Below, in pieces: positions 16,813 to 47,348 of a stretch of 64,000 nt of DNA; positions within the stretch are counted from its first letter, which is position 1, and every line of letters starts with the position of its first letter. Under the pieces are notes generated by a model, which saw only the letters and a list, made by a program, of their open reading frames with translations, had not been told where the DNA came from and did no database searches. The stretch is from Sialis fuliginosa (taxonomy: Eukaryota; Arthropoda; Insecta; Megaloptera; Sialidae): assembly GCA_961205875.1 (NCBI GenBank), contig OY540813.1:19191001-19255000 (forward strand), written 5' to 3'. A program made the translations under genes and the position numbers.

Positions 16813-17214
16813 CTATTATAAAATACATTGGATTAACAATAACTCAATAACCTCCTATCATAAAGTGCAGTAAGCTCAAATTTTACCAGAATAATAAAAA
16901 ATATTGAAACACAAAATCTAATTCACTGCACTTCATGACACATAATAATATTTTGTTAATATAACTCAACATGCACACAAATTCTATTTTTGTTAGAACA
17001 TTAGTTGAAATTAAATAAAATCGCGTGACCGAACAAAAGCTTGTATAAAATAATAAAATAAAGACATTCTTTGTCCATGCACTTTACTAGTTGATGATAA
17101 AAATGCCATCTGAAACAATAAAATAAAGTAAATGAAATAAAAATATAGATCGAAAATAAGATGCTTTAAGTGAATCGATGACGATTATCAGGACGAAACG
17201 TTAGGATGCTCTAC
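16813..17214 (-). other. Intron; stop codon just inside it
   Basis: About 400 bases of AT-rich intron. The frame of the upstream giant exon reads only four codons into it before TAA at 17201-17203, so retention would end the protein with Arg-Ala-Ser. Nothing else is recognised. Confidence 0.75.
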
Positions 17215-20200
17215 CTTGGGTGGTTATATGACGGGTTACGTAAGTGCGGTGGGTCACAACATCAGAGTCTGAGCTAGCTGGAGTCTCGCCGCGGGCGATG
17301 GAAGTCATCAAGTGGTCGTAATCCGACATGGGGACATTTTCCTTCTCTTTTCTTTCATTCATGTAATGGTGTACGTAAGATTTCATTTCCGATTCACTCA
17401 TATTTTTGTTTTCTGGTTTGATTATAATCCTTTTCTGTATCACTCTTTTTACGTGAACATTACCATCCGCATCAACTTCCTCTGTTTCGTGAACCATCTC
17501 ACCTTCATTGAACTCTTCCATGTATTTTTCAATCTGTCCTTCTACATCTGGCCCACGGAATGTAACTTTTTGTATTTCGGCAGGTAGTTCAACCGTTCGA
17601 TGAATAGTGTGAGAAAATTCTGAACCACTTTCACAGGGTTCGATCACTTCTGTAACATATGGCTTTGATAAATCATCTGTGTAATATCTTGTGTCAAAAC
17701 GATTACTTCCTTCACCACTTGAACTATTGTCATCCGACCATACTTGGCACAATGCTGCAGATAAATCTGCGCCTTGAAATCCAGATGCGACTGCATTTGG
17801 ATCAATAGTGTCTGTACTAGAAACCATGGTATTAGATCCACCGCTTGTAAAACTACCGGAAAACACAGAGTCTGTTTCATATTGGTATGTAGCATGTGTG
17901 GCTGTTGAACTAGATGGTTCAAGGCTGTCTGTGCTTCCTAACATAAGGTCTGCATATTTTACATTAATATCTTTGCTTGATGAACTCGGATCACCTTCTC
18001 TACCACTGGAACTACTTTTATCGTGAAAAATTACTTCACCGATACGTGATCCGTCCTCATCTATAGAATCAGATGTCACAATTAAATTTGCATCCATGCT
18101 AGCTGTCAATTCAAGGGAATCACTGGCAACAATGCTACGATCTTGTAAAGGTTCGTGCATTTCAATACTGTCAGTCATAATGTCTTTTGTTGTTTCACGG
18201 GTTCGATTTTGGAATTCGATTGAATCGGTACTAGTGTTCATTAAATCAATTACATTTTTTAAACTGTCTGAGTTATCATTTAATTCTGACTTTTTGATAT
18301 CTAAACTGTCAGTAGACATAATCATTATATTATCTTGTGAAGAAACATTTTTATCAGCAGGGGCATCCAATTCTAAATCTGGCACCTTTGCGACTTCTTC
18401 AAGAGAATCGCCACGGCCAAGAGATTGCGTTCTATCTAAATCTTTTTGATCTATGAATTTTTCTACATTACTTTGAGCTTGTCTTATTATTTCATCTATT
18501 TCAAACATTCGTTTTTCATAGTCATCCTCTTCAGATTCAGCTACATATTTCTTACTTGTTATAGAGACTGTTTCACAACTTTCAGATTCAGAAAATGTGC
18601 TTTCATGACCTTCATCTATTTGAGCTAGCAAAGCTTCTTCCTCTTTAGCTTTTATTTCAATTTTATGCGCTTGTATGCATGCAGTTTCTAAACCTTCAAA
18701 TTCTTTTAAAGATGAACATGACACATCATCTCCTTGTCCACTTTTACTTGCATAATAACGTTTCGGAAAACTTCCGTTACTTAAGGAATCTTGTGAACCA
18801 TGTTGGTATTTTCGGTTTTCTAATGATATTGCTTGTTCTAAGTTTTCAAATTCTTGTAAACTAGACATCGATATGTCGTCATGATCACTAGAGCGAGTAA
18901 AAAATTTTCTTCCTGCTAAAACATCATAATCGGGAGTACTTGAGAATGAATCTTTAACACTACTATAGCTTCCACCTGAATTTTTCTGTGATCCTAAACT
19001 TCCCATACGCGAACTGGGGTCGAAGTCTGTCATTTCTTCTTCTTTAATATCTTCCAAAGGTAACCTTTCAAATTCCATTTCATATCCATATCCGGCTGCT
19101 GCTGCAGCAGCCATCGCCGCTGCCGTACTTTGATCTTGGAACTGCATTTCCATCCATTTTTTACTTGCTTCCACATCACGTTCGTATTCTTTCAAATTAT
19201 TTTTTCCAGTTTTTTTATCAGAACTTCTCTTATCCATTGTCGGAGGACTATCTTCAAATTCAAATGGTCCCAATTCATCGCTACTAGAACCACCTTCTGG
19301 ATAATATTTGATGTCGGTTAATTTAGCTGGTGCTGATTTTATTAAATATTCTTCTACTTCTCCATCGTGCTTCCTTATATATTTTGGTGCTTTTCTAATT
19401 GCAACACTTTTTCCTTCGGTGTCAGTTTCAGCAGCTTCTCTACCTACTTCTTCAATTACTACAAATTCATCGGTTATGTCAGGTTTTTCTAACATTTCAA
19501 ACGAATCACTTGTTGGAGATTCGGTAGGTGATGATGGTTCCTTAGTTTCTGTTTCATAAATAGTTGTTTTTTCTTCAGTAGTAGTTGAAATTTCACTTCT
19601 AGATTCCGTCATTATTTTCTCATCTAAACACGATTCTATTTCCTCAGGAATCGAATCATCACATTCGTTCAAAATATACTCTCTTCCTTGATCAGTATCT
19701 TCAGAGCTCTTACTTGAAATTGAAGCAGGTGTTTGCGGTGTAGATTTTATAGCTTCGTCTTCTTTTTGTTCGAGTTCTAAATCAGGATAATGGAACCCTC
19801 TATCAATTAATGGTGCCATATGTTGGGTGACAGTAATATCTGGAATATAGGGACTCTGATCTTGAAGATTGGAATCAATATTAGTTTCTTTGACATATTT
19901 TTTTTCTATTTCATGTTTTTCAGCGTCTACGTCTTCTAATATTGTACCAATTAATTTAGCTTGATGAACAGGTGAAGTGTGAGGTACCATTTGGAAAGCA
20001 GCTTCTGCTTCTGATTCTTCGGTACTAGACTTTTCAAGTGATTTAATAGCTAAATCAGAAATATCTGATACTTTTGTAATTATTTCAGATTTCATTGATT
20101 TTATTTTAGATTCAATTGTCACACTTTCTGTTTTAGTGTATTCAATAGAAGTATGTGCAGTTTGATAATCTGGAGAACGAGGATAAGGACTAGAAAATTC

Positions 20201-23200
20201 TAGTTCTGATTCTCTGCCACTACCAGCTTGTGTTCCAGATGATTCGCTCTTTTCATAAACATCAGTTGGTTCTGGTGAAGGTGGTCTTTCTATAGGGTCA
20301 TCTGGAGCTTCCGATGAACATTGTTTAAGAAGTTCGGATAATTCAGAATCAGGTCGATCGTCTGATAATCCTACAGAAATAGCTTTATGACTTTCGGAAT
20401 CAGATTTACTAACTTGAGATTGCGGTCTAGAGTATTCTGAATCAGGTTTTATTTCAGATGCATCAACCTCAGGTTCTCCGTCACTATCAGTTCGTTTAAT
20501 CATCTCTTCAACTTTATCAAACTCTATGTTTTTACTGTCAGCAAAATCTTTTTGGGGTGATTCCATTATAACGGTATGTGCAATAGGAACTATTTGTGAT
20601 ATTATAGTTGGTGTAAATGAAGTACTGCTTTCTTGTCTTCTATGACCTTTCTTTTTCTGCTCAACTGCATTATCATATTCCGGTATGTAATCGACCTGTG
20701 TAGGTCCATTTTGTTCGGTTATGGTTTTTTCTTGAACTTCTATGTTTGATAAGATTTTAGTTTGAATATTTTGATAATCATTATCATATGTTTTTGAAGA
20801 TGCTACATCGCTAACACATTTGATTGAAGCATCATGTGTAACGTTATCTTTGATATCTGATAAAGAATCCTCCATGCTTAACTGTTCTAAACTATCTAAC
20901 ATGTTCATTCCTGGTGTCTGAGTTATGTCAACAACTGTTTTTTGCATCGATGTTTCAGATGTACTTGAATAACTAATACTGCCATCTGCTATACTAGTCA
21001 CGAATTTTTCATCGATTTCTGTACCCGTTTCTGATTGCGGTGAATCTGCAATTATAATTCTTGGTTCTGGTTGGAATGTCATTTCATACGATCGTTTCAT
21101 TTTAGGTGCGATTTCATCTTCATTTACATTAAATGTTTTTATTTCATGTGCTGATGAATCTTCTTCAGAAACATCTATTGATTCATCTGGTTGTGATCGA
21201 TTTACTTGATTAATAGACTGACTATGCCCTAAAATATCTACTGAAGTAATATCAGTAATATGTGGTATTATAGGATCTTTTATTTCTATATCAAAATCAG
21301 CAATTTCATCCTGTATTTCATCATTTTGTGTTTCATCAGGAAAATCTCCATCTAATTCAAATGCAGATGGCACTAGTGTTTCAGATGCTTCCGATACTTC
21401 TACACTAGCCAAATTTCCAGAACTCTCACTATCTAAACTCTTCATACTTTCACGTGAACTTATACTACTAACGGCTGTATGATATTCAGCTGAAGTAGTA
21501 TTGAGATATGATTTATCCTGTGTTGTTAAGGCACTTTCATATTCTGATGATCCTCCAGCAGCCACAAGACCTTCTACATCTGACGAACACGGACGACTTC
21601 GTAAACTATCTTGTTCAAAGCTCTGGTAATAGCTTTCTCCAGAACTAGACCATGCTTCATTGTCAGCTGTAGAACGCCTGTCAGTTGCTCGAAGAACACC
21701 AGCGCCACTACTACTACTAGTATCTGTATCTTTTGTTGTTCCACCCTTACGTAATAAAACGTCACTTGCATCACTTGTACGTAATGAATCGGTATCTGTT
21801 TTACGACATGAAGAAGTAGATGAAGTTTGTTCTTCACAAGATTTTGATTCCGATGTTGAATCTTTGTCTTTAGTAAGTTTTTCTGAAGCTATTCTTTCTG
21901 TTAGTTCTAAATTAATTTCCTTACTAATATTTGAAATAGAGATTTGCTTAGTCATTTCCGCAGCTAATTCGATTTCATTTGTTTTCTCTTCAATCAATAT
22001 CGTTCCAAGTGCTTCAATCTTATGTGAAGATAATATTTCCATGGATTCCTCATCAATAGAATGAACTCTTTCCTCAACTTCGCTCTTTAAGTCTGAAGTC
22101 TCTTTTGTGGTTTTCATAAAACTTTCATGGTGTTTATTCTTAAATTCTTCTTCAATATAGGAATGTGTTTCAGTTTTAATACTGCCATGCATAGTTGTGC
22201 ATTCTGTTGATATGTCTTCATATTGTGTTTCTTCTATTTTATCAATTATTTTTTTTTCGTGAGCTAAGCTTTTAAATTGGAATTCAGATGGCGAGGGCTT
22301 TTTATGCATGCCTGTTTCTAATAATTCTTCTTGTGCAGCATGTAGTGATTCTTGAACTTCTGCTAATGTTTTCTCGATAGCAAGCAAATCAGGTTTTGTT
22401 GATTTTGTTTCGGGTTTTTTAATTTCTGATAATAAATTATTGATTTCTAGGTCAGTACATTTTAAATCCTCATCAGTAATTTCTGTACTTGAAGTTTGGG
22501 TATCAGTGCGTTCAATACTTGAAAGTTGTTTTCTAGCTAAAATTGATTTTACAAGTTCTACTTCACTTTCATCTAATCCCTTTGCTGAAGCTAATTGGTG
22601 TAAATATTCTGACACTTGATTTTGTGCTAATTCTGGATCTGGTGTTGATTCTGATGTTTCTTCGATTTCTGTAGCAAAACAGTCATAGCGTTTTTGAATT
22701 TCGTCTTCTATATTACTAATCAATTCTTTTGCTTTTATTTTTGCTTCTTCTTCGTCTATACTTGATTGAAGATTCAATGGTATTAAATCCTGTTTTTTAT
22801 CTGTCTTAAATTTTGTATCTGTACTGACTACTTGCGTGGTCGGTATGTATGTTACTGCTTCTTCTACAGTGATTGGTTGTGATTGAATTGGGACTTCCCA
22901 TACAGTATCAGGGACATGTTCTTCTGGCATATTAATAGGACTTAATGCTCTTAATTCATGGATGAAGTCTTTTTGTTCCTTTTCTAGGTCTAGGATTTGT
23001 CCTACTTTGCTTATACTATCCAATTCTCTTTCAAATCTTTTTTCGGCGTGAGAAGAACTTTGTTCAATTTCTACAAACTTTTCAGAATCTTCCAATTCAC
23101 TTTTATCTACATGCATTTCTAAAGATAGTCGTATTGTTTGAGAATTATCTAAAGCAATATTTTCTACATTTTCTTCAACTTTCGAACTAATATAAGTTTC

Positions 23201-24162
23201 TGTTGCTGCTGATACATGCAGTGGTTGTCCATCAGTTGATGGATCATCAATTAATCTTTTTTTGTAATTTAGTTTTAAGTCTGAATCAATATCACTCCTT
23301 TTATGTAGATAAAAATTATCTATAAGATCACTAGATTCAAGTAAATCACTTTTAATTCCACTATGTGCCTTCTCTAATAATTTTCTGGTTGTGCTTAAAT
23401 CTGAAGTTGGTAATGATGCTGATCTTTCTAGCAGTATAGTGCGTACTGCAGCAATTGGTGGTTGATCGGTGTCTCCTTTAAGATGAGATAACCTATCATC
23501 AAATTCTTCACTTTCAATACTGTCTGATCTAAAACCATCATTATCATATCCTCTATGTATGTCATATTGTTCATTTGAATCCAATGTTTCAGGTACATCT
23601 ATTTCTGTTTGGGGTGATTCAACATATCGTTTTTTAGGTTCTTTTTCATCTTGTAAAGGACACTGGAACGAGGCCATATATTCACTTAATAATGGTTTCT
23701 TGTCTTCGTTGTCTAAAACCTCTTCATCATTTGCAATCTGCTGTTGAACTGTTGATCGTGGCTTAGGAATTGGTAATATAACTTCAACTTCATGTACAGA
23801 CGTCCTTTTTTTAAACTGCGAACTGTCGTGTGTGGTCACTGTTTCTGTAGCTAAACTCATTCTTTTCTTTCCTGTTTGATTCGAACTACTCATTCCTTCC
23901 CAAAATTTCTTTCGATATGAATAATTTTCAGTTATACTTTCTGATGGACTTATTCCTACTTGAACTTTTTCTATATTTGCAGATTCATTCTGAACAGGTG
24001 ACAATGGTATATCGTCTGTTAATTCAAATGATTCTATAGGCGAGGTTAGTTCAATTTGACTATCTAGTTGTTTAGTTATGCGTGGTTTAGGCTTTGGTGT
24101 TAGTTCAGTGATGTTTTGAGTAGTTGTAGTAGCGATAGTTGTTAATGGCTCACCGGTGGTCT
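17215..24162 (-). CDS. Ank2: Giant ankyrin-like tail exon, 6.9 kb, acidic Ser/Thr-rich, with ankyrin C-terminal motif
   Basis: A single exon of 2,316 codons. The minus-strand acceptor is cctcttttag and the donor is CCAAG|GTAGAG; it is phase 1-1. The protein is strongly acidic and Ser/Thr/Glu-rich with no folded domain that I recognise, as expected for an extended cytoskeletal linker. Visible items: a polyalanine stretch near 19075-19130; two copies of SSL-x-EFE-x-LE (about 18685-18735 and 18830-18880); and seven [ST]-D-[ST]-[IL]-[DE] motifs between about 17800 and 18330. Near the end, around 17425-17485, is TEEVDADGNVHVKRVIQKR. Vertebrate ankyrin tails carry a matching D-x-x-G-N-I/V-x-x-K-K-I/V-I/V-R-K signature, which is the main reason for calling the gene an ankyrin. 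A futsch/MAP1-like protein is the alternative for such an acidic giant. Confidence 0.72.
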
Positions 24163-24636
24163 CTAAAAGAGAGGCGGTTAGTATGTTAGCACGATTATAA
24201 TATAAAATAAATTATTTGATCATTAAATATATAACAAAATTAGTCATTTTTTCAGATTGTGTAATACACATCACATAAAATTCACATAACACATAAATAC
24301 TTGATCAACTCTCATACATAGATATAACATATACTAGTAGTATATATATTATAATATATATATATATATATTACATGTGTATACGTTATCATAATTATGT
24401 ACGACTGAAGTAGCGCACGTCATGCAAACACACTGCTTAACTCAACACATATATTGAAGGCAAAATATAAAAAGACAACGATATATTTCAACATCATGCA
24501 CAGCAATAAAACAGCAAAAAATTGGTGTTCAAACATATCGGGCCCTCTATATTGATGTAATTAATTTTTGTGTTTATTTGATGATTTTCGTGAAGACTAT
24601 TTCCTATTAACCAAAACTAGTAGTGATTGAAATTAC
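24163..24636 (-). other. Intron with short TA run
   Basis: AT-rich intron between two phase-1 exons. A TA microsatellite lies at 24355-24371. Nothing coding is seen. Confidence 0.75.
24355..24371. repeat. (TA)n microsatellite
   Basis: Seventeen bases of alternating TA in an intron of the giant gene, preceded by a similar interrupted run. Confidence 0.8.
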
Positions 24637-25302
24637 CTCCTAGAGGACTTTGTTCTAAAGCACAAAGATATCTTGTTACATGTGGTTCACTAATATTCTG
24701 AGATGTTCTAAAAGACTGAGATGTTTTCTCGTTGATATTTAAAAAAGTTGGCTTGTATACTTCGTCTGAATGAATTTCACTCGTACTCAAGTCAACAAGT
24801 TCTGATTCAATATCATCCAGAGCACTAATTGACAATTCTTGAATATCTGATGTACTATTAACATTTTCTTGAGAACCAAAAGGACTTGTTTTACTTAGCC
24901 AATCCAAAACGGCATTCATAACCATCCCAGTACTAACATTTTCTCTACTGAAAGCCATTTTAAATGGCGAGTCAGCAGTATCGTATACACTGTGTCCGAC
25001 AGATTTACTCATGATTCCATGATCCACTACTGTTTCCACCAGTGATTTTTTTGTTGTGTCATTATCAAAAGTTTTTTTTGAACTGTCAATAACGTTTAAA
25101 TCTGGAAGACTGCCATGTAAACAAAATTCATTTCTTATACGTACTCCCGCTTCAGATTTTGCTCTCATATTTGAATATTTTTTCGTGGGAATTGGAGACG
25201 AATACGGACTTCTTTTTATTGGTATTATATCTATTTCGACACCTGCTTTGTTTATATTTTGATTTTTATTTAACGTTACTGGTGCCATGTAAACAATGTC
25301 AC
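24637..25302 (-). CDS. Ank2: Giant ankyrin-like protein, 666-bp exon with SxIP-type motif
   Basis: Symmetric phase 1-1 exon of 222 codons. The minus-strand acceptor is cttattccgtag and the donor is TAGGAG|GTAATT. It starts GDIVYMAPVTL (Gly split with the previous exon) and ends EQSPLGG. Near its start, about 25172-25205, it has KRSPYSSPIPTKKYSNMRAK: an S-x-I-P core inside a basic/Ser/Pro segment, the class of motif that binds EB microtubule plus-end proteins. This fits the microtubule role known for giant neuronal ankyrins. The rest is polar and Ser/Asp-rich with no domain recognised. The frame after the donor stops within six codons. Confidence 0.72.
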
Positions 25303-25541
25303 CTACGGAATAAGTTTTTTTATAAATATCATAGGAGTTCCCGATATGTTTGATATTGTACGTTTTAATTTTCGTTAACTTTGTGTTATTGTGAAGATAT
25401 GCATGCCCTACAGAAAAGTGAATAAATAAATGCTATTATGTAATTGTAAATAAGGACGTGACCTAAATTAAACATAGGTCATGTGCCTTTGTAAAACATT
25501 TATATGACAAAGTATAATATAAACATTTGTTACTAATCTAC

Positions 25542-28500
25542 CTTGTGGCAGATCTTGCACTTCAGCAGTGCTATCTGGTGTCTTCGATTCCCAGTCTTCA
25601 CTGGCCGTAAATGTACCATCATCCCATATATTTGAGTATTCTTTTTGGAAATCTGAAACTTCTTCTGTACTCAATTGTGAAACAATTCTTTGGAATTCAA
25701 TTTCTCTACTGCGTTCTAATTCTGGAGTGGGTATTTTTTCTTCAGTAGCCTTAATTTTATCTTGCTCTAAAGTTTCTGATGCCATACGTTCAAAATGTCG
25801 TTCGATACGCCGAAGTTTTTTAGAATGTTTAGTATCATCTAGGTTTGAGTTATCAAACTGAATATTATCATCTTCCATTGATTTCAGAACCATATCAATA
25901 TTGGATAGCTTTTCTTCGAGTTTTGTAAGATCATCATCAGTTTTGTTATCATTATAAGCTTCTAAAATGGACGGCGTTTCCAATTCAATATTGCTTTCGT
26001 CAATATCTGTTATGTAGTTTTGAGAAAAATCACCGTCTTCAGATTCTATATGAAACAGTCGTTTTTTCTTAGCGTCCGTAACAAATGACAATGGTTGTGC
26101 GGAATATAAATCTTTTTGACATTGATCAATTGTTTTCAACGTTGATAGATCAATGTTCCTTTCAGATATATTTGTTGAAAATTCATCTGTAGGTCCTGAA
26201 TTAGCTTTACCGTTATCATCTAATTGTAAATTAGACAATGAAGCACTTTCAGTAGATAATGTACGAATATTAGAAGTCATATCAGTATTAGCATCAGAAT
26301 CTAAAACTGATGACTTGCATATCTGTGTAATATTTGACTCTGGGTGCCAACTCTTTAATGTTTCTTCAACGCTGTCATGTATTTCTTCGACTGGTTGCAC
26401 ATCAACATCTAAGTCAGTTATTTGTACAGTGGTTGGAAAATGAATGTCAAATGATGAAATCATATTTTCTTCATTTATAACGTTTTCTATAATGTTATTC
26501 TTGATATCTTTGTTACCAACAGAGGAAACAACGTCTTTAGTTCTTTCTACGTTTTTATCAAAAGAAGAGCCAAAGTCTTCAAAAATTCCTCCATCTTTTG
26601 ATTTTATAAAGACACTTTTGTCTATAACCGCCTTTGCACTATCTTTTACTATATCTTCAGTATCTATTTTGATTTTTGATGCAACATCTTTAGTTGTTTC
26701 TACTTTCCTATCAATATCAGAGCTAACATTATCAAAGAATCCTCCTGCTGTTGTTTTTACATCGCAACTTTTTTCTGATAACGTTTTTGCACCATCCTTT
26801 ACATTATATTTGGTATCTTTTTTGATGTCTGAAGCAACATCTTTAGTTGTTTCTACTTTCTTATCAAAAGCAGAGCCTACGTCATCAAAGAATCCACCTA
26901 CTTTTGATTTTACATCGCTGCTTTTTTCTGAAACGACTTTTGCACCATCCTTAACTTTATCTTTGGTATCCTTTTTGATATCTGAAGCAACATCTTTAGT
27001 TACTTCTACTTTCTTATCAAAAGCGGAGCTAACGCCATCAAAGAATTCTCCTACTTTTGTTTTTACATCACCACTTTTTTCTGTTACAGCCTTTGCAGTT
27101 ACTACTACTTTATCTTCGGTATCTTTTTTGAAGTCTGACGCAATATCTTTATTTATTTCTACTTCCTTAGCAAAAGCGGAGCTAACATCATCAAAGAATC
27201 CACCTTCTTTTGTTTTAACATCGCTACTCTTTTCTGATACCGCTTTTGCACCTTTTTTTACTTTATCTTCGGTATCTTTTTTGATGTCTAAAGTAACATC
27301 TTTAGTTGTTTCTACTTTCTTATCAAAAGCAGAGCCTACGTCATCAAAGAATCCTCCTACTTTTGTTTTAACATCGCTGCTCTTTTCTGATACCGCTGTT
27401 GCACCTTCTTTTACTTTATCTTTAGTATCTTTTTTGATGTCTGAAGCAACATCTTTAGTTGTTTCTATTTTCTTATCAAAAGCGGAGCTTATATCATCAA
27501 AGAATTCACCTACTTTTGTTTTTACATCATCACTTTTTTCTGTTACAGCCTTTGCAGTTACTACTACTTTATCTTCGGTATCTTTTTTGAAGTCTGACGC
27601 AATATCTATATTTGTTTCTACTTCCTTATCAAAAGCGGAGCTAACATCATCAAAGAATCCACCTACTTTTGTTTTAATATCGCTACTCTTTTCTGATACC
27701 TCTTTTTCACCTTCTTTTACTTTATCTTCCGTATCATTTTTGATGTCTAAAGTAATATCTTTAGTTGTTTCTACTTTCTTATCAAAAGCAGAGCTAACAT
27801 CATCGAAGAATCCTCCAACTTTTGATTTTACATCGTTGCTTTTTTCTGAAACCACTTTTGCACCATCCTTTACATTATCTTTGGTAACTTTTTTGATATC
27901 TGCAGCAACATCTTTAGTTGTTTCTACTTTCTTATCAAGAGCAGAACTTACATCATCAAAGAATCCACCTACTTTTGTTTTAACATCGCTGCACTTTTCT
28001 GATACCGCTGTTGCACCTTCTTTTACTTTATCTTCGATATCTTTTTTGATGTCTGAAGTATCATCTTTAGTTGTCTCTACTTTCTTATCAAAACCAGAGC
28101 CTACGTTATCAAAGAATCCTCCTACTTTTGTTTTAACTTCGCTGCTCTTTTCTGATACCGCTGTTGCACTTTCTTTTACTTTATCTTCAGTATCTTTTTT
28201 GATGTCTGAAGCAACATCTTTAGTTGTTTCTGTTTTCTTATCAAAAGCGGAGCTTAAATAATCAAAGAATCCACCTACTTTTGTTTTAATATCGCTGCTC
28301 TTTTCTGATACCGTTGTTGCACCTACTTTTACTTTATCTTCGGTATCTTTTTTGATGTCTAAAGCAACATCTTTAGTTGTTTCTACTTTCTTATCAAAAG
28401 CAGAGCTTACATCATCAAAGAATCCACCTACTTTTGTTTTAACATCGCCGCTCTTTTCTGATACCGCTATTGCACCTTCTTTTAGTTTATCTTCGTTATC

Positions 28501-31500
28501 TTTTTTGATGTCTGAAGCAACATCTTTAGTTGTTTCTACTTTCTTATCAAAAGCGGTGCTAACATCATCAAAGAATCCTCCTGCTTTTGTTTTTATATCG
28601 CTACTTTTTGCTGATATCGCTGTTGCACCTTCTTTTACATTATCTTTAGTATCTTTTTTGATGTCTGAAGCAACATCTTTAGTTGTTTCTATTTTCTTAT
28701 CAAAAGCGGAGCTTACATCATCAAAGAATCCACCTACTTTTGTTTTAACATCGCTGCTCTTTTCTGATACTGCTGTTGCACCGTCTTTTACTTTATCTTT
28801 GGTATCTTTTTTGATGTCTGAAGCAACATCTTTAGTTGTTTCTATTTTCTTATCGAAAGCGGAGCTTACATCATCAAAGAATCCACCTACTTTTGTTTTA
28901 ACATCGCTGCTCTTTTCTGATACTGCTTTTGCACTTTCTTTTACTTTATCTTCGGTATCTTTTTTGATGTCTGAAGCAACATCTTTAGTTGTTTCTACTT
29001 TCTTATCAAAAGCAGAGCCTACGTCATCAAAGAATTCTCCTGCTGTTGTTTTTACATCGCTACTTTTTTCTGATAATGTTTTTGCACCATCCTTTATTTT
29101 ATCTTTGGTATCTTTTTTAATGTCTGAAGCAACATCTTTAGTTGTTTCTACTTTCTTATCAAAAGCAGAGCCTACGTCATCAAAGAATCCTCCTACTTTT
29201 GTTTTAACATCAATGCTCTTTTCTGATACCGCTGTTGCACCTTCTTTTATTTTATCTTCGGTATCTTTTTTGATGTCTGCAGCAACATCTTTAGTTGTTT
29301 CTACTTTCTTATCAAAAGCAGAGCTTACGTCGTCAAAGAATCCTCCTACTTTTGTTTTAACATCAATGCTCTTTTCTGATACCGCTGTTGTACCTTCTTT
29401 TACTTTATCTTCGGATTCTTTTTTGATGTCTGCAGCAACATCTTTGGTTGTTTCTACTTTCTTATCAAAAGCAGAGCCTACGTCGTCAAAGAATCCTCCT
29501 ACTTTTGTTTTAACATCGCTGCTCTTTTCTGATACCGTTGTTGCACCTTCTTTTAATTTATCTTTGGTGTCTTTTTTGATGTCTGAAGCAACATCTTTAG
29601 ATGTTTCTATTTTCATATCAAAAGCGGAGCTTATATCATCAAAGAATCCACCTACTTTTGTTTTAACATCGCTGCTCTTTTCTGATACTGCATTTGCACC
29701 GTCTTTTACTTTATCTTTGGTATCTGTTTTGATGTCTGAAGCAACATCTTTAGTTGTTTCTACTTTCTTATCAAAAGCAGAGCCTACGTCGTCAAAGAAT
29801 CCTCCTACTTTTGTTTTAACATCGCTGCTCTTTTCTGATACCGCTGTTGCACCTTCTTTGACTTTATCTTTGGTGTCTTTTTTGATGTCTGAAGCAACAT
29901 CTTTAGATGTTTCTATTTTCTTATCAAAAGCGGAGCTTATATCATCAATGAATCCACCTACTATTGTTTTAACATCGCTGCTCTTTTCTGATACTGCTGT
30001 TACACCGTCTTTTACTTTATCTTTGGTATCTTTTTTGATGTCTGAAGCAACATCTTTTGTTGTTTCAATTTTCTTATCAAAAGCAGAGCTTACATCATCA
30101 AAGAATCCTCCTGCTGTTGTTTTTACATCGCTACTTTTTTCTGATAACGTTTTTGCACCATCCTTTACTTTATCTTTGGCATCTTTTTTGATATCTGAAG
30201 CAACATCTTTAGTTGTTTCTACTTTCTTATCAAAAGCAGAGCCTACGTCATCAAAGTAACCACCTACTTTTGTTTTTATTTCGCTACTTTTTTCTGATAC
30301 CGCTGTTGCACCTTCTTTTACTTTATCTTCGGTATCATTTTTGATGTCTGCAGCAACTTCCTTAGTTGTTTCTATTTTCTTACTAAAAGCAGAGCTTATG
30401 TCATCAAATAAGCCTCCGACTTTTGTTTTTACATCGCTACTTTTTTCTGATACCGCTGTTGCACCTTTTTTTACTTTATCTTCTGTATCTTTTTTGATGT
30501 CTGAACTAACATCTTTACTTGTTTCTACTTTCTTATCAAAAGCAGAGCTCACGTCGTCAAAGAATCCTCCTACTTTCATTTTAACATCGCTGCTCTTTTC
30601 TGATACCGCTGTTGCACTTTCTTTTACTTTATCTTTGGTGTCTTTTTTGATGTCTGAAGCAACATCTTTAGATGTTTCTATTTTCTTATCAAAAGCGGAG
30701 CTTATATCATCAAAGAATCCACTTACTTTTGTTTTAACATTGCTGCTCTTTTCTGATACCGCTGTTGCACTTTCTTTTACGTTATCTTCGGTATCTTTTT
30801 TGATGTCTGAAGCAACATCTTTAGTTGTTTCTACTTTCTTATCAAAAGCAGAGCCTACGTCATCAAAGAAGCCTCCTACTTTTGTTTTAACATCGCTGCT
30901 CTTTTCTGATACCGCTGTTGCACCTTCTTTTACTTTATCATTGGTATCTTTTTTGATGTCTGAAGCAACATCTTTAGTTGTTTCTATTTTCTTATCAAAA
31001 GCGGAGCTTACATCATCAAAGAATCCACCTACTTTTGTTTTAACATCGCTGCTCTTTTCTGTTACCGCTATTGCACCTTCTTTTACTTTATCTTCGGTAT
31101 CTTTTTTGATGTCTGAAGCAACATCTTTAGTTGTTTCTACTTTCTTATCAAAAGCAGAGCCTACGTCTTCAAAGAATCCTCCTACTTTTGTTTTAACATC
31201 GCTGCTCTTTTCTGATACCGCTATTGCACCTTCTTTTACTTTATCTTCGGTATCTTTTTTGATGTCTGAAGCAACATCTTTTGTTGTTTCTACTTTCTTA
31301 TCAAAAGCAGAGCCTACGTCATCAAAGAAGCCTCCTACTTTTGTTTTAACATCGCTGCTCTTTTCTGATACCGCTGTTGCACCTTCTTTTACTTTATCTT
31401 TGGTATCTTTTTTGATGTCTGAAGCAACATCTTTAGTTGTTTCTACTTTCTTATCAAAAGTAGAGCCTACGTCATCAAAGAAGCCTCCTACTTTTGTTTT

Positions 31501-34500
31501 AACATCGCTGCTCTTTTCTGATACCGCTGTTGCACCTTCTTTTAAATTTTCTTTGGTATCTTTTTTGATGTCTGAAGCAACATCTTTAGTTGTTTCTATT
31601 TTCTTATCAAAAGCGGAGTTTATATCATCAAATAATCCACCTACTTTTGTTTTAACATCGCTGCTCTTTTCTGATACCGCTTTTGCACCTTTTTTTACTT
31701 TATTTTCGGTATTTTTTTTGATGTCTGAAGCAACATCTTTTGTTGTTTCTACTTTCTTATCAAAAGCAGAGCCTACGTCATCAAAGAAGCCTCCTACCTT
31801 TGTTTTAACATCGCTGCTCTTTTCTGATACCGCTGTTGCACCTTCTTTTACTTTATCTTTGGTGTCTTTTTTGATGTCTGAAGCAACATCTTTAGATGTT
31901 TCTATTTTCTTATCAAAAGCGGAGCTTTCATCATCAAAGAATCCACCTACTTTTGTTTTAACATCACTGCTCTTTTCTGATACTGCTGTTGCACCGTCTT
32001 TTACTTTATCTTCAGTATCTTTTTTGATGTCTGAAGCAACATCTTTAGTTGTTTCTACTTTCTTATCAAAAGCAGAGCCTACGTCATCAAAGAAGCCTCC
32101 TACCTTTGTTTTAACATCGCTGCTCTTTTCTGATACCGCTGTTGCACCTTCTTTTACTTTATCTTTGGTGTCTTTTTTGATGTCTGAAGCAACATCTTTA
32201 GATGTTTCTATTTTCTTATCAAAAGCGGAGCTTACATCATCAAAGAATCCACCTACTTTTGTTTTAACATCGCTGCTCTTTTCTGATACTGCTGTTGCAC
32301 CGTCTTTTACTTTATCTTCAGTATCTTTTTTGATGTCTGAAGCAACATCTTTAGTTGTTTCTACTTTCTTATCAAAAGCAGAGCCTACGTCATCAAAGAA
32401 GCCTCCTACTTTTGTTTTAACATCGCTGCTCTTTTCTGATACCGCTTTTGCACCTTCTTTTACTTTATCTTCGGTATTTTTTTTGATGTCTGAAGCATCA
32501 TCTTTTGTTGTTTCTATTTTCTTATCAAAAGCGGAGCTTACATCATCAATGAATCCACCTACTTTTGTTTTAACATCGCTGCTCTTTTCTGTTACCGCTA
32601 TTGCACCTTCTTTTACTTTATCTTCGGTATCTTTTTTGATGTCTGAAGCAACATCTTTAGTTGTTTCTACTTTCTTATCAAAAGCAGAGCCTACGTCATC
32701 AAAGAATCCTCCTACTTTTGTTTTAACATCGCTGCTCTTTTCTGATACCGCTGTTGCACCTTCTTTTACTTTATCTTTAGTATCTTTTTTGATGTCTGAA
32801 GCAACATCTTTAGTTGTTTCTATATTCTTATCAAAAGCGGTGCTAACATCATCAAAGAATCCTCCTGCTTTTGTTTTTATATCGCTACTTTTTGCTGATA
32901 TCGCTGTTGCACCTTCTTTTACATTATCTTTAGTATCTTTTTTGATGTCTGAAGCAACATCTTTAGTTGTTTCTATTTTCTTATCAAAAGCAGAGCCTAC
33001 GTCATCAAAGAAGCCTCCTACTTTTGTTTTAACATCGCTGCTCTTTTCTGATACCGCTGTTGCACCTTCTTTTACTTTATCTTTAGTATCTTTTTTGATG
33101 TCTGAAGCAACATCTTTAGTTGTTTCTATTTTCTTATCAAAAGCGGAGCTTACATCATCAAAGAATCCACCTACTTTTGTTTTAACATCGCTGCTCTTTT
33201 CTGATACTGCTGTTGCACCTTCTTTTACATTATCTTCGGTATCTTTTTTGATGTCTGAAGCAACATCTTTAGTTGTTTCTACTTTCTTATCAAAAGCAGA
33301 GCCTACGTCATCAAAGAATCCTGCTACTTTGGTTTTTACTTCGCCACTTTTTTCTGTAACCTCTTTTGCAGTTTCCTTTATTTTAACTTCGGTATCTTTT
33401 TTGTCATCTAAATTTATATCTTTAGTTGTTAGTACCTTCTTATCAAAAGCAGAATTCATATCAATGAAAAGTTCTTCTACTTTTGAATTTAAGTCGGTAG
33501 AAGTTTCGTGTAATTTTTTTTCTTCAGTTTTAGTTTTATTACTTGTTTCATCTTGTTTATCAGAATCAGATATTATATCTTTTCTTATTTCTTCTGGGGG
33601 TATTTTTGTCAGACCCCCTTGTGATTCTGTTTGTTTTTCATGGTTTTTGTGACTGTCGTCTGTTTTACCGAATATTTTTTTGAAAAATCCTGTTACCGAA
33701 TCAGCAGCACCTTTTGATTCTTTTTTTGTTTCATCTGCTATCAATGTTTTTTTATGATCTATGTGATCTTCTATTGTTTGTGGAGATTTTATTACATCTT
33801 CTATTTGTTTATTTTCATTGTCAGTATTGCTTTTAATATAATCCGATATTTTCGAATCTTCCGTTTTAGCGATACTATTTATTTGGTCTATTACTTGTGA
33901 ATTTTCTTCTAAATTTGTCTCTATCTCTTTAATAATTTGTTTAGATGTCGATTGAATATCTTCATTTTTAGCTAGTGGGTTAAATTCCACATTGCTTTCC
34001 GTTGCTTCAATTTTTTCACTAACAGTATTTAATATATCGATAACATTTGAATCTAAAAATTTTGACTGTTCATCTGTACCTTTTTCGAATTGTTCATTTG
34101 TATCTTTCGATGTCTTATCAGTGTCAACTATTGTAGGCCTCTCAGTTTTAGTGATATCGTCTTTTATGTTTTTATCAATATATTTATTTTCCTTACTTGT
34201 TCCAAATAACTTATCAAAGAACCCAATTTTTTCTTTAGTTTCTAATTTTGGATTAATTTCAGCAATTTCCGTGTTTTTGTCTGGTGAAGATATTTCACTT
34301 ATTTTTTTTTCTTGTTCTTCTTGTGCTGACTCCGGTTCTTCTGTGGATCTATCATTATCAATTTTAGATATTGTGTCAGTTACTTCTGCTTTCTTCATTT
34401 CATTTTCAGTTATGTCAATCAAAACTTTCTTTAAAATATTGGAAGTGTCTGTTTGATTATCTTCAGAAATTTCAGTTATTTCTATTACGTTACTGTCTAT

Positions 34501-35870
34501 AGCTTCTAACATTTCTGCATTGTCATCTTCACTTTTCTTCTGTTTTTTTGAAAAAATACCAAATATTCCTTTACCACCTTTATCTTCTTTTTCACCATGT
34601 TTTATGTGTTTATTTTGTTGTTTCAAATTATCGTTTGTAAAATCTTTTTTAGCTTTTATATCTATATTTATAATTTTATCACTATCAATTAACTCTTCTC
34701 TAATTTTTATTTCACTTTTAATATCTTTATTGTCTTCATCAGGCAAAATTTCTTTCTTTATATTTTGGTCATCTGTTTTTTTTCCCTTTTTTCCAAACAG
34801 ACTGAAAAATCCACCTGACTTTGTACTTTCACTCTTATTTTTGTCAGGCTGCGGTTTTAATGATGGATCTTTATTCGAATCATCTGTCTCAATATCTATG
34901 TCAATTTTTTCTGCGGTTACCGGAATTTCAGTATTTAAAACATCGTCATCGTTAGGTGAAATAAGCATTGTTTCAGTTGTGATTGTATCTATAGTAATTT
35001 TTTCTGGAATAATTTCTTCGTTATCTTTATTTTCTTTTGTATCTTCTTTGCCGTCTTTTTTTATAAAACTTATATCATTTTTGCTATCCACATCAATAAC
35101 TGTACTCAAATCTACGGAAATATTTTTACACGGTAGATCTTCTTTAATTAAACTCTTCTCTGTTATGACTGAAAAGTCTTGAGGATTTATAATTATACTA
35201 TCAAATGTTTGAGATATATCATCCACATGTAAAACGTGAGTGAGTGGTTTATTGCTAGATGAATCTATTTCACTGGTAGTTTGTAATTTATTTTCATCTA
35301 TCTCAAGAACGTTTGGTTGATCACTTTCGTCTATATCTTTGTCTTTAATACCCATTTTTTCGCCATTGTCATTTGAAATAATATCAGGTTTTTCAATTTT
35401 ATTCTTATCTGTTTCATTTGTCATTACTTCTGTTTCTGATGATTGATTGGGATCATTAGGTTTTGATTTTTTATGTTTTTTAGTTTTATTTTTTTTAGCC
35501 TTTTTGGGCGACTGATCATCTTTGGAATCACTATCTGAATGATCAAAAGATTTTTTTGCTAATGATTTTAATGTTCCAAAGAAACCTTTACCACCTTTTG
35601 TTTTTTCTTTCTTGATTTCTTTTTCTTTGGATGGTTCTATTTTTTCTATACTTTTTTCTTTAAATGTCATTTTTTCTACTACCGGTGCATATGGTTCTGA
35701 TTGTGATTCCATAGATAAAAAGTCTAAGGTTTGTTTTTTAACAGCTGTTAAATCTTTAGATAAAATATCTTGTACTATTGAAAAGGCTGTAATACATGTT
35801 TCAGCAGGTTGTTTTGAAATTTCAGTTGATATATTTGACTGTTTCTCTTCTTGAGCTGTTTTCATTAATC
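25542..35870 (-). CDS. Ank2: Giant ankyrin-like tail exon, 10.3 kb, with 46 x 51-residue repeat array
   Basis: One exon of 3,443 codons, phase 1-1. The minus-strand acceptor is attatttcag and the donor is CCACAAG|GTAGAT. The N-terminal 700-800 residues are Lys/Asp/Glu-rich and carry five short aromatic-basic motifs (for example GFFGTLKSLAKKS, GGFFSLFGKKGKK, GFFDKLFGTSKE, GFFKKIFGKTDD). The middle is a 51-residue tandem array, with units typified by VGGFFDDVSSAFDKK followed by ETTKDVASDIKKDTEDKVKE and GATAVSEKSSDVKTK. The repeats look like long polar amphipathic helix. The C-terminal part is unique and acidic. No catalytic domain is present. No comparable ankyrin repeat is known to me; membrane or microtubule binding is inference only. 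Confidence 0.75.
26470..33490 (-). repeat. 153-bp coding tandem repeat, 46 units
   Basis: The 'tcaaaag' register point is at 33443 in the first unit and at 26558 in the last. The distance of 6,885 bases is exactly 45 x 153, so the array has 46 units with no net length change. Outer units, such as FEDFGSSFDKNVERTKDVV near 26500-26600, are more diverged than inner ones, as expected if copies arise by unequal exchange in the middle. The ends given are approximate. Confidence 0.93.
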
Positions 35871-36196
35871 CTGAAATAATATTCACTATCCAACACTAAC
35901 GTTCAAATCGTTTAATCAAAATAAAGTTCTGTTGTTTCAAAAACAGAGTATTACTTACTGCATAATAAAACAGTTCAACTTAACACCTACATTTATAAAG
36001 ATTTATCAAAAACAAAATCTACTATGTAAATAAATAAGTGGAAGTATAATGTGTAAGGATTGATACATTTTTAAGTGTTTACGCTAAATTTATATAAGCA
36101 AATCGAAAGCATACTGAAAAACAAACATAATGCGGTTAAAATATGCACTCCATTGGCTACACTCCATGCGGGTGAGTCGCACATCAAGCCTTTTAC
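35871..36196 (-). other. Intron, nothing recognised
   Basis: 326 bases of AT-rich intron with GAAG|GTAAAA donor and tatttcag acceptor on the minus strand. The open frame past the upstream donor (Arg-Leu-Asp-Val-Arg...) is not coding-like and ends at 36090. Confidence 0.7.
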
Positions 36197-37432
36197 CTTC
36201 CATTTGGAAGGTCGAAGAAGGTAACACCCAATCACAATAGCCGGCTCCCAGAAGAGGTTCCTTAGTATCTGTTGGACACCAATCATAATTTGTAAAGCAA
36301 TTATTACTTTCTTGTGTATTTCCCACATTTGTGTAATATTTCTCGTGCAATGATAATGGGTATTGCGGATAACATGACGATACAACTAGTTCATGCCCAC
36401 TCCTTGAAATCTTTTTAAAATCAATTAAATCTTTTGTATTTTTGGATAGCTGTGATATGTTATTGCAACTGGATGATTTTTTACATGATTTGTTTAATCT
36501 AGAAGGCTGTCTGTAAGCCGACTTATTAATCGAAGATATGAAAGATTTGTTTGTTTTAGAAAATTTATTAGTCACATCTGATAACTTTTTCGATAATGAT
36601 GACAGTGTGTTGTGAATTTTTTTAGATACATGCTTACTCGTTTTGTTATAAGGTAAAGTCTCAGGTGCTAAGAATTCTCTCACGCTTCTCATTTCCATTG
36701 TTTCACGACCATTTTCTTTGGTTTTGACAAATAATTTTATTTCTGCTTTTATAGGTCTCTCTTCTGTCAGTGTCATATTATCATTGTTGTCATTATTATC
36801 AGGTAGCAATTTTTCTTCATTTACATTTAAATCAAAAAATGAGTCAAATTTAATTTGATCAGAATAGATATTCGGTAATGACTTAGATAGGATATTATTT
36901 TTCTTCTCTATTTCATGTAAAGGTATTGCAGATTTGCCTTTATTTGGACTATTGACTCTAAATGTTCCTTCCCACCATATATTAGGATCACAAGAATAAC
37001 AATCATTCTTTGAATCATCATGAAATGTTTGATCATCTGTAAAGCAGTCTTCTAATTTCTTTTCGGAGCATTCTTTTCTTTGTAATAAATTTGTATCATT
37101 GTCTATTTTCTTATATAAATCACTGTCTACTTTCTTCTGCTCTTTCGAAGATATAATCTTTTTGGGAACGTTTTTCTTGATAGGAATTTCGATTATAGCA
37201 TTTACAGATGGAACCAACTCCATTTTATTAACATAAAATGGTGTAAAATCACTCTTTTCATTCTCTAAAATGAGTTCTTCTATTTCTGTTTCAGTTAACA
37301 TTTCTTCTAACAGCCTGTCTATTTCAGAATACGATGATATGTTCGCAACTGCAGATGGCTTTGGTGGTAATGTTTCGAGCTCACCCGATGGAGTGCATAA
37401 GGTCATGAAACTGTATGTGCACATTGCTGGAT
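36197..37432 (-). CDS. Ank2: Giant ankyrin-like protein, 1.2-kb exon
   Basis: Symmetric phase 1-1 exon of 412 codons. I place the acceptor at gttttaactag (37433-37434), which gives DPAMCTYSFMTLCTPSGELE in frame with the upstream 99-bp exon. A downstream cag at the internal Ser codon is possible but would break phase. The N-terminal third is acidic (EEMLTETEIEELILENE). The C-terminal half is Lys/Ser-rich and basic (SKKIHNTLSSLSKKL, then KFSKTNKSF), a composition common in microtubule-binding segments. It ends LPSSTFQMEG at the GAAG|GTAAAA donor. No domain is recognised. Confidence 0.7.
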
Positions 37433-37846
37433 CTAGTTAAAACAGTTTCATACCAATATCAAACTGATTTTGCAGTAAGGAATATCTGCTTATTGAACAC
37501 ATTCGCATTATAAAGAACAAACTGTAAAGTTTTCAATTATAACCATAACGATAATGATGGTAATTTCTACGAATCGTTATAAACCAGGAATGCGCTCAAA
37601 TTTATATAAGCATTAATTGTTATATGCAGGTAATATTTGCTATCCAATTTATCTACAAATTTTGAAAATAATATTTTATAACGAGTTATATCATTTGTTG
37701 CAATAAATTAAATTTTAGACCTAGCGAGACCTTTACTATATTCGTTAAAACGAAAACAATAATAATATAAAAACATATAATTTATTATTTCTTGCCTGAT
37801 TGTATTTTCCAATGCTAAAAACTAAAAGATGTAATAACATATAGCT

Positions 37847-44542: not shown

Positions 44543-44660
44543 CTGTAACAAAATATATATTTTTACTATATTACAATGAATTAATTAAACTGTGTATCAG
44601 ATAAAACTAGCGGTTTACATTATTATATATATGTAATTTATAAAGGCTCTATGCTCCTAC

Positions 44661-46985
44661 CTTTTTCTGAAGTTATATTTTGAAATGGCGTATCTTCATC
44701 GGAGATTCCTATTTCTTCGATATCTGTTGATTTATCTGGTAAATATCCACCCCCTTTTATATGCAGTACCTCATCGGTTTCATCAAATTTACCACTACAC
44801 TGCATAAAAACGTGTGATCGGTCGCTTTCTTCTAACTGTTTCTTCATTTCAAGAGGTGTTGCTGTTTCAGCTCGTGAATAACTCACTGCAAGTTCCTCAT
44901 CAGCTGATGTAAAAATATCTTCAGTATCAGTGTTATGGGTTTCACTCTTTGGCGTTCTTTTATTAATAATAGGTGATTCGTCATTTATAAAAGACATGCG
45001 ATTTTCAGATGATAAAATATTGTCTGTTTCTTTGAATACTATAGTTTCGTTTTCACATCTTTTCATCATATCAGGAGTAGTAGATAAGGCTCTGTGTAAT
45101 GTTATAAGTTCATTAGGATCTATGTCATCATCTGTTACAATATCTTCTACATCAGTTTTATTATCTGGTACAAACTCAGGAGCATTTACTGACAGTTTAG
45201 ATTTTTTTACCAATTCATTATTAAAAGTATTTAAATCTGTATCACTTAATAATAATTCTTCCTTATCGGTCAATCCATCATCGTCATTCACGGGTGCACG
45301 TAGCTTTGAACTCTTCACGCTTATTTTCTCACTTTTATTTAAAATGACAAGCTCTGAATCTGTTAGACAGTCTTCATTTAAATTTGTATTTTTCTTTCTT
45401 TCATCTATATAATCTGAGGTTTGTATATAGCTGTTTTCAGACAGCGTAAAATTTGAAAAGGAGAAATCAGTAGGAAATGATAGTACTGTTTCATCTTCTG
45501 CAAAAGACACTTCATCACTATCTGTTGCAACATCATTGGTTGAAATATCTAACTTTCCAAAATTAATATCTTCAGGTAATGGTTCAACATGTGTTGTAGG
45601 AACACCTGATTCGTCACTTTTTATTGTAACTAAACGTCGGACTGGTTCCGGCAACTCCATGTCAGTAAAAAAATTTCCATTGTTGACGTCAATGATTTCA
45701 ATGTCTATATCTTCACTATCAGTGCTACTGTCTTTATGGTCTCTAATAACCGCATTCGGAATAGGATTCTCATTTTCGCTACTTTCGTCGGAAGATGCCA
45801 AATTTTCTACATCTGTTAAAGCTTCAGTATCCGGCTGTCCAACAGATAAATTATTACTTTTTGTACTAATTTGTTTATTACTAGATAAAATTTTTGTTGG
45901 AGCAGCAAAGGTAATATCGTTATTAGTAGTAAATTGTTCCACAGAATCAGACACATCATCACCAGATCCAATATCATCTTCTTCACTAGTTTCTGAATCA
46001 CTAAGTTTATTGTCTTCTTTATGTACAGGGAATGTTTCAGTTACATATATAGGCGGGGCATTTTTAACTGCAGATTCTTCAATTATTGAACTATATGAAT
46101 CTTGCAAATTTCTTAGAGGTTCAGGTGTTCTTTGCATATTTTCATAATATGTGTTATCAGATACATTACCATCCGTTTCATAATCTTCTGTATCTGTTGG
46201 TGGGAAAATACATATATCCTCATCTTTATTATCTTCTTTTTTTAATGAATTTTCATCTGAATACACACTCTCAGTTTTTAAACTGTTTAAATCATCTTGA
46301 GTAAAAACAAATCCTGGTGTTTTAGATAACGATACTTGACGAATTAAATTTGTTATTTTTCCCTCGTCGGATGAGGATGAGTTTGCAGCAAAGATAACTT
46401 TGGGTTTTCCATACAAAAATTTAGGACGACGTTTTTTTGAACAAACTGATTGATCCTTTTCTGTTTCTGAATCCGATTCAGAATGAAGAACTTCTACAAT
46501 AGATGATTTTTGCGTATTGTTTGATTTACGAGTATGTTTTCTTGCATACTTTTTACCAGAAAATTTTTTAGTGCTACTATTATATCCGGATTTTTTGTTT
46601 TCGAGTATAGATACATTATCGTGAATTTCAACTGAATTATCAATATTTAAAATATCTGGTACAGTATTTTCATCAGTGATAATCTCATCATCTAAATCGT
46701 TTTCTGATCCATCCATTTCTTCAAACTCTGTAACATTGCCACCTATGTCAACATCTTGTAATCCTAAAAGATTTGAATTATCTGAAGATACTGTCTTAGT
46801 GTTGTTTTCGTTTATGGTTTTCGCGTGTATTTCAACATTTTTCTCTGCTCCTTTTTTTGAAAACAATTTGTTTTCGTTTTCACTGCTAACTTCTTCTACA
46901 TCAGTATCGGCATTAAGTGATTGTGTTTCGTTATCGCTATTAGATTCAGTTGTAATAGCTATTAAAGGAACCGTGTCATTTGATG
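44661..46985 (-). CDS. Ank2: Giant ankyrin-like protein, 2.3-kb acidic exon
   Basis: Symmetric phase 1-1 exon of 775 codons. The acceptor is aaaatgtcag (exon from 46985) and the donor is GAAAAAG|GTAGGA. It starts ASNDTVPLIAITTE. The protein is highly acidic and Ser/Asp-rich, with one basic patch (GKKYARKHTRKSNN, then KKRRPKFLYGKP). It carries about eight copies of a T-D-x-E-[DEN] motif: TDVEE, TDTED, TDVEN, TDSEL, TDKEE, TDVED, TDTED and TDIEE. These suit acidophilic kinases such as CK2 or act as a repeated ligand; this is inference. An in-frame Met just upstream of the acceptor is coincidental. Confidence 0.72.
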
Positions 46986-47135
46986 CTGACATTTTCTTTA
47001 TTCAGTTTTAATCCAGCAATAGAAATATTGTCAATCCTGTGTATTAACAAATAAATAAATACAACCAAGATAAAAAAAAAAACATAAAAATACTACCTTG
47101 CGATATTTTAAGTACACTTATGATATATTACTTAC
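46986..47135 (-). other. Short intron
   Basis: 150-base intron between the candidate micro-exon donor AATG|GTAAGTAA and the acceptor of the 2.3-kb exon. Nothing else is seen in it. Confidence 0.45.
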
Positions 47136-47208: not shown

Positions 47209-47348
47209 CTAGACCTCTACTTGGACATGAATAAAAAACTTTAAAAACGTTTAGGTTGCGTCAGTCGTTTAAGACGGCGTGACTTTTTACGAAATTTATT
47301 AATTTTATTTAAAAAAGTACGCGAAAAAAAACCGAAACGTGCATGTAC

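Follow-up and report, generated by a model that had tools for sequence, protein, structure and literature searches.

A 51-residue repeat array with the features of a lipid-surface amphipathic helix in a likely giant ankyrin gene of Sialis fuliginosa

Introduction

Perilipin 4 (Plin4) contains 29 tandem 33-mers, free of insertions and deletions (indels), within a helix region of 968 residues, which is unfolded in solution; its binding to droplets relies on numerous weak contacts and requires more than 66 residues (PMC5889406). A second point of comparison is provided by the long exons of giant ankyrins, which measure 8.1 ± 4.85 kb on average and can hold repeats of 36–228 bp in copy numbers from 5 to more than 160 (PMC5135030). 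Here, we analyzed 64,000 nucleotides of the Sialis fuliginosa genome (the window; G000:C5:19191001-19255000 in a 392-Mb assembly of 20 contigs), whose minus strand encodes an array of 51-residue repeats downstream of ankyrin domains. Unless genomic coordinates are given, positions are those of the window.

From the analysis presented below, we consider the chances to be about even that the array constitutes a class-A-like helical strip that binds lipid surfaces, similar to that of Plin4 by convergence, inside a giant ankyrin.

Results

The array is regular and varies like coding sequence

The array comprises 46 consecutive in-frame units of 51 codons, running from position 33588 to 26551 without a single insertion or deletion. 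A preliminary description of this DNA had claimed 46 units of exactly 51 residues in constant register, and both points were borne out, with the ends of the first and last units lying 6,885 bases (45 × 153) apart, though the first unit is degenerate (18/51 identities). This unit was excluded from all further counts (n = 45 units). Each of the others matched the consensus at 32 to 50 of 51 positions, and Tandem Repeats Finder reported a period of 153, 45.3 copies, 88% matches and 0% indels. Mean identity between units was 0.886–0.899 across lags 1 to 12, and no strong higher-order repeat was seen at these lags.

The variation between units resembles that of coding sequence: minor variants had mean frequencies of 0.072, 0.040 and 0.102 at codon positions 1, 2 and 3, respectively, the mean pairwise ratio of nonsynonymous to synonymous substitution rates (dN/dS) was 0.40, and no stop variant was observed against 20 single-base stop opportunities. 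The open reading frames (ORFs) of 605, 635 and 1,103 residues that cross the same stretch on the plus strand are most plausibly antisense shadows of a repeat that is poor in stops. In one DNA and one protein search, each scoring only the best candidates, no copies of the array were reported elsewhere in the assembly.

A single hydrophobic face runs in register through all units

Hydrophobicity, averaged by column over the 45 units, was dominated by harmonic 14 of 51, which corresponds to 98.8 degrees per residue and 3.64 residues per turn, with a height of 17.9 vs. 10.9 for the next harmonic. Of 20,000 column permutations, a fraction of 0.0004 reached this value when only the helix band was considered, and 0.0027 when all harmonics were. 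Harmonic 14 accounted for 32% of the hydrophobicity variance of the 51-mer; the best harmonic of a 69-residue repeat array in the same gene (described below) accounted for 21%, at 3.29 residues per turn. As 51 residues amount to 14 turns, neither the seven-residue joint nor the passage from unit to unit shifts the face out of register, with a phase scatter of 4.9 degrees across the 45 units and a moment per unit of 0.257–0.403.

None of the 11 bulky hydrophobic consensus positions is more than 75 degrees away from the face centre, and a hydrophobic residue was retained in 488 of the 495 cells at these positions. The centre itself holds Thr at two positions, with Gly and Ser nearby; prolines are absent, and Leu and Lys occur 0.33 and 10.3 times per unit, respectively. 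The 18-mer hydrophobic moment was 0.364 vs. 0.193 (standard deviation 0.007) in residue shuffles. By our own calculation the array has a moment of 0.36–0.38, which falls among the lipid-surface helices of Table 1 in PMC5889406, where values of 0.39, 0.35, 0.30 and 0.257 are given for ApoA-I, Plin3, alpha-synuclein and Plin4, respectively.

Charged residues are also ordered around the helix. Acids were on average 135 degrees and lysines 94 degrees away from the face, a separation of 40.6 degrees (22 charged columns, permutation p 0.0029). Acids opposite the face combined with lysines nearer to it form the pattern known as class A in apolipoproteins. A single apolar face with ordered charges, as expected of lipid-surface amphipathic helices as a class, is thus present in the array. 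The preliminary description had named the absence of a hydrophobic face as grounds for abandoning its lipid proposal; one strong face was found, with acids opposite and lysines nearer the interface.

The same description had divided the unit into 11-mers, and this fared less well. The amphipathic stripe at 3.64 residues per turn stood, but a distinct 11-residue repeat was only marginal, with p 0.059 at lag 11 in BLOSUM self-comparison, p 0.018 at lag 7 and p 0.029 at lag 18. The best lag was 22, and the maximum over lags 1–25 gave p 0.30. A strict 11-mer repeat was consequently rejected, being useful as a helical approximation alone; 14 turns per 51 residues together with a 22-residue self-similarity fits better.

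Database matches point to periodicity rather than descent

When 666 residues of the array were compared with Pfam, three families scored above their cut-offs: Apolipoprotein (PF01442; 92.6 bits, cut-off 90), Phasin (PF05597; 84.4 bits, cut-off 28.8) and Col-Pyo_DNase (30.4 bits, cut-off 27). With 306 residues, Apolipoprotein scored 62.6 bits on the forward array and was absent from three of three column-permuted controls, but it reached 78.7 bits on the reversed array. Phasin scored 49.4 bits forward and 16.6 bits reversed (cut-off 28.8), and was likewise absent from all three permuted controls. Unrelated models passed their cut-offs on the controls as well, namely DUF2990 and Zw10_N on the reversed array, DUF3223 on one permuted array, and DUF7902 and NusB on the 69-mer array.

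Because the reversed, permuted and 69-mer controls also pass unrelated cut-offs, Pfam passes are unsafe for repetitive queries of this kind, and because the reversed array scores as strongly, the Apolipoprotein match reflects periodicity and not descent. As evidence of descent from apolipoproteins or phasins, the Pfam matches were rejected on these grounds. The preliminary description had also named, as evidence that would contradict the lipid proposal, a match of the profile to some family of different role; three models do pass, but in searches that the controls mark as unsafe, and they do not clearly contradict it. Perilipin (PF03036) was not among the Pfam families listed for the array, nor were the synuclein and LEA families (E up to 1 for 666 residues and 0.01 for 306 residues). 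NCBIfam gave nothing above cut-off for the forward or the reversed array.

Apolipoproteins A-I and A-IV or alpha-synuclein made up 16 of 19, 13 of 15 and 6 of 8 of the PDB matches listed in three forward searches. Among the matches listed for the controls, apolipoproteins or alpha-synuclein appeared in 0 of 2 rows for the reversed and 0 of 4 for the permuted array (one control each). The alpha-synuclein rows all had E values of 0.05 or worse, and none was among the matches listed for the 306-residue search. We read these neighbours as suggesting a resemblance by kind, not by descent.

Separately, a perilipin-family match (L033; 63 bits, cut-off 33) was noted on another contig, at G000:C6:16543539-16544060; the stretch that matched contains three stops, read through introns or otherwise. 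It was the only one listed in the genome and lies in a place unrelated to the array.

Several findings weigh against a lipid-binding role

The higher Apolipoprotein score of the reversed array is one of a number of results that weigh against the lipid-surface reading. The NCBIfam phasin model scored 35.4 bits on the reversed array (cut-off 94.7) and gave no forward match. None of the PDB matches was significant (best E 0.013), and their rows represent a few proteins deposited repeatedly. With regard to composition, the net charge of −1.04 per unit is unfavourable for strong binding to acidic membranes. Hydrophobicity averages about 0.01, and at 0.30 the hydrophobic fraction is below all of the entries considered from Table 1 of PMC5889406 (0.32–0.72). 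In the 69-mer array of the same gene, the 18-mer moment is fairly high too (0.323).

Residue identity on the face showed no extra conservation, with a dN/dS of 0.65 vs. 0.35 elsewhere, and the deficit of polarity-switching variants was not significant (3 of 20 vs. 29 of 93 opportunities, p 0.18). Selection on the face was accordingly dropped as a claim, although its hydrophobicity is kept. These statistics describe 45 units of one species. As for structure, the Gly-Gly of the unit may break a helix, and AlphaFold models, both of low confidence, break the helix at other sites. The models are all-helical and uninformative, with a mean predicted local distance difference test score (pLDDT) of 30.7 for 204 residues (11 rows) and of 48.4 for 102 residues (22 rows).

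The array lies downstream of ankyrin domains

Ten ORFs upstream of the array on the same strand were compared with Pfam, and matches above cut-off were obtained for Ank (four), ZU5 (one), UPA_2 (one) and Death (one), three ORFs being unmatched. By type of candidate, this corresponds to four of four Ank-like ORFs, one of two for ZU5, one for UPA_2 and one of two for Death; the tenth ORF, at L026:6044-6742, had no Pfam match. A family search recovered a further ZU5 match (19345172-19345402), which contains one in-frame TAA. Along the minus strand, the domains follow the giant-ankyrin order of ankyrin repeats, ZU5, UPA and Death, which supports the ankyrin context proposed in the preliminary description. 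Two more ZU5 matches in the genome, at L017 (G000:C1:18197358) and L019 (G000:C9:20282231), may belong to additional ankyrins or to different ZU5 proteins.

Consensus donor/acceptor pairs in matching phase connect 36196 to 35870, 25541 to 25407 and 24636 to 24162; the acceptor at 35870 was read by eye, as the filter of the splice-site script omitted it. On sequence grounds, the array likely belongs to the ankyrin transcript. For the frame at 44641-47001, which lies between the two arrays, the splice-site scan yielded no good acceptor. A PAM2 motif (PF07145; 22.9 bits, cut-off 20) was noted in this frame at 45163-45210 on the minus strand; such motifs are ligands of poly(A)-binding protein. The Atg8-binding motif of giant ankyrins was considered for the tail exon and dropped, there being no ankyrin chain among the PDB matches listed.

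Between the Death-domain exons and the 51-mer array sits a frame which, as assembled, contains 22,143 uninterrupted codons (66.4 kb), mostly of 69-residue repeats. We counted 272 occurrences of the string KIIE in it, with 244 spacings of exactly 69. Should this frame be a single exon, its length would far exceed the mean reported for the long exons of ankyrins (PMC5135030).

The 51-mer array is preceded on the minus strand, at 33655-35586, by five short motifs that are rich in Phe, conform to the type GFFxxLFGKK and are mostly flanked by Lys. They are similar to the GGFFDDVxSAFDKK part of the unit, and judging from this similarity they may represent an ancestor or seed of the array.

Table 1. 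Location of the array and of associated features in the window.
Feature	Position	Strand	Basis or remark
45 tandem 51-residue units without indels, consensus VETTKDVASDIKKDTEDKVKEGATAVSEKSSDVKTKVGGFFDDVSSAFDKK	26551..33435	-	Unit alignment, Tandem Repeats Finder; 14 turns per unit
Degenerate first unit, 18/51 identities to consensus	33436..33588	-	Unit alignment
Open frame with array, 3,475 codons	25468..35895	-	ORF listing
Likely array exon	~35870 to 25542	-	Acceptor by eye, donor by script; predicted from sequence
Pre-array motif 1, GFFGTLKSLAKK	35551..35586	-	
Pre-array motif 2, GFFSLFGKKGKK	34777..34812	-	
Pre-array motif 3, GKGIFGIFSKKQ	34534..34569	-	
Pre-array motif 4, GFFDKLFGTSKE	34189..34224	-	
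Pre-array motif 5, GFFKKIFGKTDD	33655..33690	-	
Candidate next exon, joins array exon in matching phase	24637..25407 (frame 24620-25432)	-	Consensus splice sites only
Candidate next exon, long tail of same gene	17204..24162 (frame 17204-24211, 2,336 codons)	-	Donor-like site 17502; no Pfam match
Candidate preceding exon	36197..37436 (frame 36093-37436)	-	Donor-like site 36196, matching phase
Further preceding frame, 787 codons, with PAM2 motif	44661..47001 (frame 44641-47001)	-	
Window part of giant 69-residue-repeat frame	47244..63998	-	Continues upstream to G000:C5:19304672 (loci L020-L024)

Discussion

If the lipid-surface reading is right, the array, probably disordered while in solution, would fold into a class-A-like amphipathic alpha helix of great length upon a lipid surface such as that of a vesicle, a lipid droplet, the endoplasmic reticulum or the inner plasma membrane. 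The Val/Ile/Phe face would insert into the lipid, with the lysines at the interface and Asp/Glu directed toward the cytosol. A single unit would be a weak binder, anchored by Phe-Phe and Phe; with the face in register across units, many weak contacts would sum over ~2,300 residues. Fully helical, the 2,295 residues would measure ~344 nm, and the proposed strip is about 2.4 times as long as the helix of Plin4 is stated to be. As part of a giant-ankyrin tail, such a strip would tether lipid surfaces or coat them, with the ankyrin head binding membrane proteins and spectrin.

Among the alternatives, a passive molecular spacer deserves to be weighed first. Here, the array would set the distance between head and tail of the ankyrin, and its amphipathicity would arise incidentally from the helical form of the spacer. 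The XL exon of Drosophila Ank2, with 93 repeats of 76 residues, has been postulated to be such a spacer, and repeat arrays are present in some of the long exons, their homology being restricted to very closely related species (PMC5135030). The far larger 69-residue array in the same gene would also suit this explanation. A spacer needs no phase-coherent hydrophobic face with ordered charges, and we regard it as unlikely.

Alternatively, four hendecads plus one heptad could build a nearly straight helical bundle or a dimeric or multimeric stalk. The ratio of 51/14, or 3.64 residues per turn, would allow hendecad/heptad packing, and the self-similarity at lags 7 and 18 and the all-helical AlphaFold models, for all their low pLDDT, point the same way. 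Against such a rod or coiled coil stand the scarcity of Leu, the two Thr at the face centre with Gly and Ser close by, and the lack of any long natural coiled-coil protein among the PDB matches listed, though these do include talin, HscB and a designed helical-bundle protein. We hold this explanation to be rather improbable.

Microtubule-binding repeats are usually basic. A microtubule- or protein-binding strip, as in the repeat region of Drosophila Ank2-XL for which microtubule binding has been reported (PMC6703079), is very unlikely here, as the units, although Lys-rich, are net acidic.

In existing descriptions, giant ankyrins link membrane proteins with spectrin and microtubules. If the array binds lipid, an ankyrin would directly hold a membrane or droplet over hundreds of nanometres. 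We tentatively propose, while rating it somewhat below an even chance, that an ankyrin has evolved its own Plin4-like strip of ~2,300 residues, which would couple a lipid surface directly to the spectrin–ankyrin skeleton without an intervening membrane protein. If true, this would be a case of convergent evolution of a Plin4-type strip through tandem duplication, and would offer a natural array for testing the summation of many weak contacts.

The array shares with Plin4 a long, indel-free tandem organization, weak amphipathicity per unit and Thr in the apolar face. It differs from it in its unit (a 51-mer vs. a 33-mer), its 45 units and ~2,295 residues, its ankyrin host and the lack of Perilipin among the Pfam families listed; its charge (0.425 vs. 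0.15) and aromatic content (0.058 vs. 0.002) are also higher and its moment is stronger (PMC5889406). In these terms it is closer to the ApoA-I entry, with a moment of 0.39, charge of 0.35 and aromatics of 0.065 (PMC5889406). With the exchangeable apolipoproteins (ApoA-I/A-IV) and apolipophorin III it has in common a class-A-like arrangement of face, lysines and acids and a 22-residue self-similarity, to which the 92.6-bit Apolipoprotein match on 666 residues may be added; it differs from them in having no proline punctuation, an equally strong reversed match and a presumably cytosolic context. Steps of the KVKEG/KTK type, a Val/Thr face and recurrent weak PDB neighbours recall alpha-synuclein, but the matches have E values of 0.05 or worse, are missing from the 306-residue search, and have no counterpart in the Pfam listings.

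The claim that no described ankyrin carries such repeats held in part: our literature search, with S4 Table of PMC5135030 outside it, found no ankyrin with repeats of this character, but other giant-ankyrin arrays have been described in that article. In common with Drosophila Ank2-XL and others, an ankyrin core precedes exons of very great length, of which some contain exact tandem arrays (PMC5135030); in contrast to them, there is here a second, shorter array of another repeat in amphipathic register. Repeat arrays in the long exons of giant ankyrins are known, and what appears to be new at this locus is the character of the 51-residue amphipathic array.

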